IMG/VR virus record: IMGVR_UViG_3300045836_000135
Span: 1 to 22,925 of that record
DNA length: 22,925 nt
From: a virus
Direction: 5' to 3' (one strand)
A model generated the notes under the pieces. The model searched no databases, was not told where the DNA came from, and saw only the letters and a list, made by a program, of their open reading frames with translations. Shown in pieces: positions 5,176 to 8,414 of this stretch. Position numbers and translations under genes: made by a program. Every line of letters starts with the position of its first letter. Position 1 is the first letter of the stretch.

Positions 5176-5209
5176 ACCCCTACCACATCGTGTGACTGGA
5201 GAGGTGCCC

Positions 5210-7714
5210 GTGAACAACGAGCAGGATCATGACGGGCTCCTCCACGCGGCCCTCGCCTTCGAAGCCGCCGGATGCTCCGTCGTCCCTGCGAGAACCGACG
5301 GCAGCAAGGCACCCGCCGCGTTCTGGAAGACCTACCAAACCCAGCGCCCCACCCCCGCCGAGCTCACCACCTGGCTATCGGACGGCGCCCACGACGGCAT
5401 CGGCCTCATCTGCGGCCCCGTCTCCGGCGGCCTGGAAATGCTAGAGCTGGAAGGCCGCGCCATCGCCCACCAGCTCGACGTGCAGCTCGCCGCAGCCCTC
5501 ACCGACCACGGCCTCGAAGACCTGTGGCATCGGATCGTCGCCGGATACCTCGAAGTCACACCGTCTGGCGGTATCCACATCCTCTACCGCGTAGAGGGCG
5601 AGCCACGCGGAAACCGCAAACTCGCCTCCCGGCCGGCCGCCGCCGAGGAGCTGGCCGACGCCGAGCGGGCCGTCCTCGGACGCCACCCCGACCGCATCTT
5701 CCCCCGCGTCCTCATCGAGACCCGTGGCCAGGGCGGCTATGTGATCGTCGCCCCCTCGGCGGGCCGTACCCATCCCTCCGGCCAGTCGTGGGCGCTCATG
5801 CGCGGCGGCCCGGCCAGCATCGTCACCATCAGCGAGGACGAACGCGACGCTCTCCATGCCATCGCCTCACTCCTGGACCAGATGCCCGATCAGCCCATCG
5901 CCGCACCTGCTTCCGGAGACCCGGCCTCGCACGAGGCCGAGGGCGGCCGCCCCGGAGACGACTACAACACCACCATCGACTGGACCGACATCCTCACCCC
6001 GCTCGGGTGGCGGCACACCCGCACCTTCGGAAAGGCCCGCGGCTGGTGTCGCCCAGGTAAGCCCGGTCCACACGTCTCCGCCACCACCGGCCGCACACCC
6101 GCCGACAACCTGTACGTCTTCTCCTCCAGTACCGAGTTCGACACCGAGAAGCCCTACAGCAAATTCGCCGCGTACGCCCTGCTGCACCATGGCGGCGACT
6201 ACGCGGCGGCGGCCAGCGCCCTGCGCGCCCAGGGATACGGACGCACCACCCCCACACGCCACGACGACGAAGACCTCGAATCCCTCATCGCCCCCGTCCA
6301 CCGCACCGAAGGGAACCTCGCCACCATCACCCCCCTGCCCACCAGCCGCCCACAGCTCCAGATCATCGAACGCACCCTGCCCCGCAGCGAGGACGCCAAC
6401 GCGCTCGCCCTGGTCGACCGGTACGGCGACACCATCCGGTACTGCCCTGACCGTGGCCGATGGCTCACCTGGGACACCAACCGATGGCAGTGGTGCGAGC
6501 CCGGCGGCGGCATCATCCGCGAACACGCCCGCCACATCGCCCGCGCCCTCCCCGCCGACCAGGCAGACGACCGCCGCTTCAAAGCCTCCAGCCTGTCCAA
6601 CCGCGGCATCGGCGCCGCCGTCCAGCTCGCCCAAACAGACGAACGCGTCGTCGTCCCGGCCGCCGACCTGGACGCCGCCCCGATGGCCCTCAACACCCCC
6701 CACGGCATCATCAACCTCACCACCGGCACCCTCACCCCGCCCGACCCGGCAGGGCTCCACACGCGCCTCACAGCCGTCCCCGCCGACCCGCACATGCCCA
6801 CCCCACGATGGGACGCGTTCCTCGCCGAAACCTTCGGCGGCGACACCGAGATGATCGGCTTCGTTCAGCGCCTCGCCGGATACTCCGCCTCGGCCGACGT
6901 CCGCCACCACATCCTCCCTTTCCTCCACGGCGCCGGACAGAACGGCAAATCAGTGCTCATGGACGTCCTGCGGCATCTGCTCGGCGACTACGCCACCACC
7001 GCCCCACCCGGGTTCCTCATGGAGAGCAGACAGGAACACTCCGCCGAAGTCGCCCGCCTCCAGGGCCTGCGCCTGGTCGTCGCCTCCGAGGTCAACCAGA
7101 ACGCGCGCTTTGACGAAGCCAAACTCAAGGAGCTCACCGGCGGCGACACCCTCACAGCCCGATTCATGCGCCAAGACTTCTTCACCTTCCAACCGACCCA
7201 CCATTTGTGGCTGATGGCCAACCATAAGCCCACCGTCCGCGCCGGTGGGGACTCTTTCTGGCGACGCGTCAGACTCATCCCCTTCAACCACCGAGTCCCT
7301 GATGAAAAGAAAATTGAGAACCTTTCCACATTGCTCGCGGGAGAGGAGGGACCAGGGATTCTCGCATGGGTCATACGAGGTGCCGTCAATGCCTTTGCGA
7401 ATGGTCTCGCAGAGCCTGAATCAGTTCTGAAAGAAACCCGTTCCTACGCTGAGGAAGAGGATCAGCTCGGCCGGTTCCTGGAGGACTGCTGCCACCTCGG
7501 CGGAGCCCCCCAGGTGCGGATGGAGACCAAGAAGCTCCGCGCCGCCTACGAAGCCTGGTGTGTCGGCGAAGGCGTCCGGCCGCTCCCCGCGTCGCCGTTC
7601 GGCCGGGAGTTGAAGGCGCGCGGGATCGACTCCGAGAAGTCCAACAGCAAACGCTGGTACCTCGGAGTCGCCCTCATCAACCAGGAAACCGAAGATCACT
7701 GGAGCGACCGATGA
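5210..7714 (+). CDS. Bifunctional primase-polymerase / SF3 helicase, P4-alpha type
   Basis: This is an 834-residue replication protein. Residues about 8-225 are an archaeo-eukaryotic-type Prim-Pol domain (motif I reads LELEG at 78-82, motif with H123 is SGGIHILYR). Residues about 490-700 are the D5/P4 primase-helicase region: Walker A GAGQNGKS (574-581), Walker B-like LRLVVASE (620-627), NHKP sensor (N671) and arginines R685/R686. The C-terminal part (about 745-834) looks like a winged helix of the type that binds origins. It would open the origin, unwind and prime phage DNA. I choose GTG 5210 because GGAGAGG lies 5 bases upstream; GTG 5192 is also open. Motif I has Glu where most family members have Asp. 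The stretch 7290-7445 has unusually low G/C at third positions. Confidence 0.92.
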   Translation: MNNEQDHDGLLHAALAFEAAGCSVVPARTDGSKAPAAFWKTYQTQRPTPAELTTWLSDGAHDGIGLICGPVSGGLEMLELEGRAIAHQLDVQLAAALTDHGLEDLWHRIVAGYLEVTPSGGIHILYRVEGEPRGNRKLASRPAAAEELADAERAVLGRHPDRIFPRVLIETRGQGGYVIVAPSAGRTHPSGQSWALMRGGPASIVTISEDERDALHAIASLLDQMPDQPIAAPASGDPASHEAEGGRPGDDYNTTIDWTDILTPLGWRHTRTFGKARGWCRPGKPGPHVSATTGRTPADNLYVFSSSTEFDTEKPYSKFAAYALLHHGGDYAAAASALRAQGYGRTTPTRHDDEDLESLIAPVHRTEGNLATITPLPTSRPQLQIIERTLPRSEDANALALVDRYGDTIRYCPDRGRWLTWDTNRWQWCEPGGGIIREHARHIARALPADQADDRRFKASSLSNRGIGAAVQLAQTDERVVVPAADLDAAPMALNTPHGIINLTTGTLTPPDPAGLHTRLTAVPADPHMPTPRWDAFLAETFGGDTEMIGFVQRLAGYSASADVRHHILPFLHGAGQNGKSVLMDVLRHLLGDYATTAPPGFLMESRQEHSAEVARLQGLRLVVASEVNQNARFDEAKLKELTGGDTLTARFMRQDFFTFQPTHHLWLMANHKPTVRAGGDSFWRRVRLIPFNHRVPDEKKIENLSTLLAGEEGPGILAWVIRGAVNAFANGLAEPESVLKETRSYAEEEDQLGRFLEDCCHLGGAPQVRMETKKLRAAYEAWCVGEGVRPLPASPFGRELKARGIDSEKSNSKRWYLGVALINQETEDHWSDR

Positions 7715-8043
7715 GCCTCTCCAGGGACAGCGGCAGGGACAGCAGGGACAACACAGGGACAGCAAAAAACGGCTGCTGTCCCTGGCGTTCCTCCAGCTCA
7801 CAGCCTTGTAGGGACAGCAGGGACAGCAAATGCTGGGTTCCCCGCCCAATGCGCGCGCACGCACACGCGCGCGCGCAGCAAACGGATAATGGGCGTTTTG
7901 CTGTCCCTGCTGTCCCTGATCGCATCTTGACCAGGGAAAACACCCAGGGACAGCAGGGACAGCACCCCTCCCCGCTGCTGTCCCTGCCTCCACAACCACC
8001 TCAACTGTGGACAACCTGTGGAAAACCAGGAGGGCAAGCATGA
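7711..8043 (+). CDS. Doubtful 110-residue ORF covering the iteron region
   Basis: An uninterrupted ORF starts at ATG 7711 (overlapping the helicase stop as ATGA) and ends in a TGA overlapping the ATG of the next gene (8040-8043). This double coupling is what real genes in this operon show. The protein, however, is low complexity (SRDSGRDSRDN, then QGQQGQ) because it merely translates the DNA repeats, and each repeat copy falls in different reading frames (RDS, AVP, QGQ). Codon choice is also unlike the neighbours. I think the DNA, not a protein, is under selection, but a translated product cannot be excluded. Confidence 0.25.
   Translation: MSLSRDSGRDSRDNTGTAKNGCCPWRSSSSQPCRDSRDSKCWVPRPMRAHAHARAQQTDNGRFAVPAVPDRILTRENTQGQQGQHPSPLLSLPPQPPQLWTTCGKPGGQA
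7723..7985. repeat. Twelve-copy 9-mer iteron array AGGGACAGC / GCTGTCCCT
   Basis: Direct copies begin at 7723, 7735, 7744 (AGGGACAAC, one change), 7755, 7810, 7819, 7946 and 7955. Inverted copies (GCTGTCCCT) begin at 7775, 7900, 7909 and 7977. Four pairs abut with no gap (7735/7744, 7810/7819, 7900/7909, 7946/7955), making 18-base double sites. Opposed copies also give stems of 11 bp (7754-7764 with 7774-7784) and 12 bp (7953-7964 with 7976-7987). No other such cluster was noticed in the window. Confidence 0.95.
7810..7917. repeat. 21-bp perfect inverted repeat around a Z-DNA-prone tract
   Basis: The double site plus AAA at 7810-7830 is exactly complementary to 7897-7917. Inside, CGCCCA (7843-7848) can pair with TGGGCG (7890-7895), and 7849-7877 is a run of strictly alternating purine and pyrimidine, mostly GC and AC steps. 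The whole could extrude a large cruciform or fold as a long hairpin when single-stranded, as at single-strand initiation sites. Confidence 0.9.
8006..8025 (-). promoter_or_regulatory. Two tandem DnaA-box matches
   Basis: TGTGGACAA at 8006-8014 is the complement of TTGTCCACA, the DnaA box consensus of Streptomyces. TGTGGAAAA at 8017-8025 is the complement of TTTTCCACA, which fits the general TTWTNCACA box. They have the same orientation with starts 11 bases apart, about one helical turn, just after the last iteron. Host DnaA could therefore help open this origin. Confidence 0.6.
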
Positions 8044-8414
8044 TCCCCACCTGGCTCCAAGCCCACATCGGCGACACCTGGCGCACCGCCTGCCTCCGCA
8101 CCTGCACCCGCTGCGGCGCCCCGATCCTCGCCGGCCTCGACGCACCCCGCGCAGGACTACCGGTGAAAGCCGACCCCACTCCACTCAATTCGTTGGGTGA
8201 GACCGTGGCTCTCCTCTCCGGCCAGACGACCTATGACCTCGTCACCGTGGCCGGGCGAAAGGAGTTGAACTACCGCGACCAGATCACCATTGCCGCACCA
8301 CGGCGTCACCCAGTCCTCGCCGCGCACAAGTGCGGGATGTCGTACACCGCATTCGCCGAACCCATGCCAATTCGGCCCACTGCTTATTCCCTTCCTGCCG
8401 AACCACCGTTTTGA
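8040..8414 (+). CDS. Hypothetical protein with CxxC and HxC sites
   Basis: This 124-residue protein starts at ATG 8040 after a strong AGGAGGG. An N-terminal CLRTCTRCG segment (about residues 18-26) and a later HKCG (about 96-99) could together bind zinc, with the middle formed by strands (LGETVALLSGQTTYDLVTV). Small proteins with this layout often follow primase genes in actinophages, but I cannot name the family. The second half uses more A/T-ending codons than the surroundings, suggesting a different origin. It directly follows the candidate origin and may be a replication accessory. Confidence 0.75.
   Translation: MIPTWLQAHIGDTWRTACLRTCTRCGAPILAGLDAPRAGLPVKADPTPLNSLGETVALLSGQTTYDLVTVAGRKELNYRDQITIAAPRRHPVLAAHKCGMSYTAFAEPMPIRPTAYSLPAEPPF

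Follow-up and report, generated by a model that had tools for sequence, protein, structure and literature searches.

The window analysed here spans the whole of a 22,925-base IMG/VR virus record, with genes for terminase, portal, protease and major head protein, and it raises the question of where this phage would start replication and which protein would select the site. An earlier note on this DNA proposed an iteron-rich origin behind a primase-helicase gene. On the comparative evidence described below, we consider it highly probable that positions 7723-8025 are the phage replication origin, of the kind recognised by its own SF3 initiator and in a GC-rich, DnaA-flanked, Prim-Pol variant.

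Iteron array, inverted arms and DnaA boxes

The 325-bp intergenic region between the stop of the Prim-Pol/SF3 gene and a small gene at 8040 (7715-8039) holds 11 exact copies of AGGGACAGC, all within 7723-7985 and none elsewhere in the contig; shuffles of the whole window contained a mean of 0.28 copies and a maximum of 2. Seven copies lie on the + strand (7723, 7735, 7755, 7810, 7819, 7946 and 7955) and four on the - strand (7775, 7900, 7909 and 7977). A further copy at 7744, AGGGACAAC, differs by one change and brings the count to 12 iterons, eight direct and four inverted, exactly as the earlier note had counted and placed them. Iteron 1 (7723-7731, +) starts 9 bp past the stop codon, the position immediately 3' of the initiator gene that is typical of PICIs, and is followed by iteron 2 (7735-7743, +), the variant iteron 3 (7744-7752, +), iteron 4 (7755-7763, +) and the inverted iteron 5 (7775-7783, -). 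On the far side of the array, two iterons at a 9-bp period (7946-7963, +) precede the last, inverted copy (7977-7985, -).

The centre of the array has a geometry that the earlier note missed. The iterons at 7810 and 7819, spaced at a 9-bp period, form a left arm (7810-7830, +), and the inverted iterons at 7900 and 7909, with the same period, form a right arm (7897-7917, -); the arms are 21 nt each, perfect inverses of each other and separated by 66 nt. This core (7831-7896), the proposed opening site, is GC-rich and is flanked by two iteron sets, 7723-7827 and 7900-7985. Inside it lies a tract of 29 nt, ATGCGCGCGCACGCACACGCGCGCGCGCA (7849-7877), also previously overlooked, in which purines and pyrimidines alternate strictly; the runner-up in the window is 13 nt long. 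Folded as a single strand, the arms and core are far more stable than their shuffles (z = -7.0) and form nested hairpins comprising the 21-bp stem and an inner CG hairpin.

Just past the array are two DnaA boxes, TTGTCCACA (8006-8014, -) and TTTTCCACA (8017-8025, -), which had been pointed out before and prove to be the only TTnTCCACA sites in the 22.9 kb. The GC-skew change that had been suggested as a check is absent: skew does not switch sign across 7723-8025, which counts against an origin. The gene that follows (8040-8414, +, ATG at 8040) encodes a small protein with a CTRCGAPI cysteine motif; it matches PHROG 16156 (3.8e-13), a family with no assigned function, and may be a replication accessory. 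A small CxxCG-motif gene has the corresponding position in L003, L004, L005, L006, L007 and L010.

The Prim-Pol/SF3 protein and its counterparts in known replicons

The gene at 5192-7714 (+, GTG start, 840 aa) encodes the proposed initiator. It matches the Pfam families Prim-Pol (PF09250, 2.7e-12), D5_N (1.4e-32) and DUF5906 (1.1e-11) and the PHROG DNA polymerase/primase (5e-167), bearing out the position of the array directly after a primase-helicase gene; its best relative in the bacterial genomes searched, from Actinomadura rudentiformis, is 63% identical. The D5_N match identifies the SF3/D5 helicase core of a P4-alpha-type initiator, and the N-terminus is a Prim-Pol rather than a Toprim (DnaG-like) primase. 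One N-terminal Prim-Pol motif (GLEMLELEGRA) appears to read E-x-E, with Glu kept in most relatives; D-x-D is usual at this motif. The last 150 residues form a winged helix in an AF2 model (pLDDT 84), and this domain (residues 756-840; 7457-7711, +) is the proposed iteron-binding element. The model aligns with RFX DNA-binding domains at Z 9.8-10.0 and with the P4 origin-binding domain 1ka8 at Z 8.4 (rmsd 2.6 over 76 residues), a likeness of fold only; the C-terminus also has a profile match to the ASFV primase C962R, and Pfam Pox_D5 was found in 32 of 67 members. The wing hairpin is encoded at 7631-7663 (+; model strands 124-127 and 130-134). In RFX1 the wing sits in the DNA major groove.

The designation of this gene as P4-alpha-type holds for the SF3 helicase and the C-terminal winged helix, which alpha shares by fold match, and fails for the primase, which is Toprim in alpha and an archaeo-eukaryotic Prim-Pol in the window protein, as in pRN1 ORF904. 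Because its N-terminus is a Prim-Pol without Toprim, the window protein probably works like P4 alpha without being a strict member of that family. The P4 crr element lies directly 3' of alpha and has type-1 repeats spaced 9 bp apart as well as inverted copies. In P4, however, ori and crr are more than 4 kb apart, whereas one array is seen in the window; the P4 core is AT-rich and that of the window GC-rich; and the repeats flanking the crr core point away from it, while the arms in the window point towards the core. The parallel with P4 drawn in the earlier note stands for a probable iteron origin bound by the phage's own protein, but the positional counterpart is crr and not ori, which is about 2 kb upstream of alpha. 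Iteron plasmids of the RepA/RepE type resemble the window in having clustered direct repeats with adjoining DnaA boxes; their initiator is not a helicase, and they have longer iterons and, as a rule, an AT-rich opening region.

SaPI/PICI origins share the layout, being immediately 3' of rep with two iteron sets around a central region, and the Rep C-terminus recognises the iterons (PMC6092414, PMC7581432). They differ in that the window has DnaA boxes and a GC-rich core with an alternating purine-pyrimidine tract in place of an AT-rich one. This origin organisation has been called unique to PICIs (PMC7581432); the window-type layout occurs in tailed phages.

The protein architecture is matched by the archaeal plasmid pRN1, whose ORF904 likewise combines Prim-Pol, SF3 and winged helix in one protein with long inverted arms downstream: 21-nt arms and a 58-nt loop in pRN1, 21-nt arms and 66 nt in the window. 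The pRN1 origin is a stem-loop of 100 bp located 54 bp downstream, sufficient together with the replication operon and described as free of iterons; according to its authors the whole structure is essential, loop as well as stem, and the recognised motifs were 'not yet identified' (PMC4234260). The 21-nt arms of pRN1, TTATGTCCATAGTGTCCAACT (L376 5084-5183), are a tandem with a 9-bp period, and so are the arms of pRN2 (GGACCGATA GGACAGGAA) and pHEN7 (TGTCACCAC TGTCACAAC), with other words. An exact 6-mer repeat in an arm is expected by chance in ~0.7% of cases; the repeats are exact in pRN1 and pHEN7 and have one mismatch in pRN2. Since the arms of all three plasmids are 9-bp-period tandems, the pRN1 stem may itself consist of inverted iteron pairs. 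In L379 and L380 the arm tandems of the pRN1 family lie after the primase gene, each plasmid having its own word. The differences from the window are that pRN1 has only one iteron pair per arm, an AT-rich loop and an archaeal host.

Conserved layout and changing repeat words

Searching relatives for the 9-mer AGGGACAGC itself, as the earlier note advised, was nearly empty because the word differs between lineages, whereas the layout is kept. Repeats after the same gene are of the AGTGACAG type in L003 and L009 (the latter also given as AGTGACAGCA), AGGGACCGAT in L005, AGTGCCCAGT in L008 and AGTGCCCCCA in L123. The possibility raised beforehand that related phages conserve the helicase and never the repeats thus does not apply: they carry arrays, with other words. 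DNA similarity searches of the array itself against phages returned nothing useful, and an exact scan of viral contigs for the tandem 19-mer found 37 stretches, most of which hold just two adjacent copies and are not arrays.

We then defined a signature without any fixed word, consisting of an 8-mer pair at 9-10 bp, a core of 25-130 bp and the inverted pair, and searched 230 helicase loci (2.0 Mb, redundant sequences included). Matches were found at 109 of the 230 loci, against 1 in the shuffled 2.0 Mb. Of the 109, 66 come 7-433 bp past the helicase stop and 40 precede Prim-Pol in a Streptomyces clade that has Prim-Pol and helicase as separate genes, while the remaining 3 are at other places; distant D5 helicases (35-40% identity) likewise show the signature. 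When the iteron words of 51 non-redundant loci were aligned, they shared (A/T)GTGAC(A/G)GnT, pointing at the core. Its GTGAC recalls the RFX X-box, GTnRCC, a likeness that is only suggestive. In the Streptomyces loci L151-L200, AGCGACTGAA arrays were noted upstream of Prim-Pol, ~3 kb before the helicase stop (e.g. L164 2260-2700), with cores that are AT-rich plus alternating.

Two further features of the window recur among 77 loci. DnaA boxes number 13 in 34.65 kb of 3' regions versus 9 in 727 kb elsewhere, a density ~30-fold higher in the 450 bp 3' of the helicase gene; they are present in only 9 of the 77 loci, which counts against the origin reading. The longest alternating purine-pyrimidine run of the locus falls within about 400-450 bp 3' of the gene in 35 of the 77. 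Other observations also count against the origin reading: the window core is GC-rich where that of PICI origins is AT-rich, the Microbacterium-type loci L006, L007 and L010 have no array after the helicase gene, and the signature search gave no match in BPP-1, phiBT1 and EV3. Copies resembling GGTGAGCAGT are visible by eye in EV3. Several Microbacterium-type members have candidate arrays 4-12 kb away from the gene; repeat clusters of AGGGCGC or AGTGACC were seen at ~+4.65 kb from the helicase end in L302, ~-10.5 kb in L301 and ~-9.5 kb in L306.

Across the family, covariation with the repeats shows a modest preference for the C-terminal domain over the helicase core (partial Mantel 0.158 vs 0.094). 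Wing columns were not prominent in family-wide column mutual information, where kinship dominates the signal.

Wing residues, iteron words and a proposed mechanism

A relation between wing and word emerged among 30 cluster-K-like mycophages whose helicases are 84-100% identical to that of L230. Their array word is XXXACAGAT, with a variable triplet XXX, and the triplet follows the wing: VAxNG-type wings go with AGC, VAxHG with GGC, xVSNS with AGT, xVxNG with AGA and MPVRG with TCT, a pairing that holds in 30 of 30 phages with zero exceptions. At least 15 triplet changes map onto a helicase tree built without the wing, and independent pairs agreed in 5/5, 5/5 and 6/7 cases, each test alone being near the limit for so few pairs. 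The association predicts that base 1 is A with Asn and G with His, and that base 3 is T with Ser, A with Val-x-Asn-Gly and otherwise C; the cluster K words expected with Asn and His at the wing tip would be AGCACAGAT and GGCACAGAT, respectively. Fixed on the first 30 phages, the rule was right for all 13 additional members of the subfamily that have its wing types; several of them are near-identical to the first set, but Nergal, CrimD, BarrelRoll, Peel and Zavala share only 4-27% of 20-mers with it. It does not cover the three more distant phages DismalFunk, Strobilo and Cheetobro. In aligned phage pairs, identity drops at the wing and recovers past the array; since the switches thus travel as a cassette, linkage could inflate the association. 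The wing-tip residues N818-S819 of the window protein (7643-7648) occupy the positions that track iteron sequence in the mycophages, but the rule is not directly transferable to it because the register of the variable bases differs.

Some further observations concern these mycophage arrays and their annotation. In L271, L272, L281, L286, L289-L291, L296 and L297, arrays of AGTACAGAT or AGAACAGAT retain 1-2 copies of AGCACAGAT. Many mycophage records list the proposed origin as a hypothetical protein directly after the primase-helicase, namely L384 (1510-1866, Peel gp70), L385 and L389-L393, and likewise L121 (6479-6829, Ximenita gp75); the corresponding stretch carries no gene in CrimD, BarrelRoll and Stinson. 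The terms 'iteron', 'replication origin' and 'origin of replication' are absent from the text of the cluster K genome paper, and the repeats that it describes are start-associated sequences, other than the array repeats (PMC3203893).

Our confidence in the origin reading derives from the signature at 109 of 230 loci, the common core word, the winged-helix model and the wing-iteron pairing, together with the DnaA-box enrichment, the purine-pyrimidine runs in 35 of 77 loci, the proven origin of pRN1 and the SaPI/PICI-like position. The array, its geometry and conservation, the box enrichment, the domain model and the mycophage association are established at the level of sequence. The comparative data support well the earlier claim of an origin bound by the phage's own helicase, the binding itself being our inference. 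In the mechanism we propose, the C-terminal winged helix of the upstream-encoded protein would bind the AGGGACAGC iterons, with a specificity set at least partly by the wing, and two initiator complexes, presumably hexamers, would sit face to face on the two inverted pairs with their 9-bp spacing. The SF3 motors would then melt the core, perhaps aided by the structure-prone alternating tract and, in the case of this phage, by host DnaA bound to the two flanking boxes. Priming would fall to the Prim-Pol domain and further synthesis to host polymerase. The description of the locus as a self-contained replicon goes too far, because the DnaA boxes point to a host contribution and none of the window proteins scanned could be identified as a replicative polymerase.

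The repeats might instead be operators through which the initiator or a repressor regulates the downstream operon, with replication starting elsewhere. The small gene at 8040 does follow the array closely, the GC skew is unchanged across it, and iteron-binding initiators often autoregulate. We nevertheless think this very unlikely: the DnaA-box enrichment and the pRN1 origin fit replication, and the array, which precedes Prim-Pol in the Streptomyces clade and takes other positions in several Microbacterium-type phages, tracks the initiator gene and no fixed downstream gene. That it accompanies the helicase in phages, prophages and archaeal plasmids alike also argues against a partition, packaging or recombination site, to which we give scarcely any credence; such sites too carry clustered inverted and direct repeats, but a partition protein was not seen among the window proteins scanned and the terminase gene is 6 kb distant.

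Somewhat less remote, though still improbable, is a reading in which the DNA stem-loop as such matters most and is recognised by its structure, as proposed for pRN1-type proteins. The strong single-strand folding (21-bp stem and inner CG hairpin) and the requirement for the whole pRN1 stem-loop, loop included (PMC4234260), speak in its favour. Against it, the stem leaves out 8 of the 12 iterons, the arms of pRN1, pRN2 and pHEN7 keep the 9-bp tandem with differing words, and in the mycophages base identity follows the wing residues while the geometry stays fixed. DNA structure could nonetheless aid opening alongside the iteron recognition that we favour.

P4 crr and the SaPI/PICI origins make this a known kind of origin; the Prim-Pol actinophage variant and the wing-iteron rule look new with respect to the open-access literature. 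None of the actinobacteriophage records examined has an annotated replication origin, and few such genomes carry one. The word-independent signature finds candidate origins beside many Prim-Pol/SF3 genes, including regions called small hypothetical proteins. We see an even chance that the Prim-Pol/SF3 replicons of phages, prophages and archaeal plasmids, pRN1 included, share one ancient origin design with a wing-set word that diversifies quickly because the RFX-like wing and the array switch together as a cassette, in keeping with the residue-to-base rule. In that design, iterons spaced 9-10 bp apart would form inverted pairs next to the initiator gene, and the 'stem-loop' of pRN1 would be an origin of this type that has gone unrecognised; the geometry offers an answer to the question of its recognised motifs (PMC4234260). 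The wing-iteron rule provides a direct and cheap test of how these initiators choose their origins and of what sets related phages apart, and could also lead to replicons that exclude one another.
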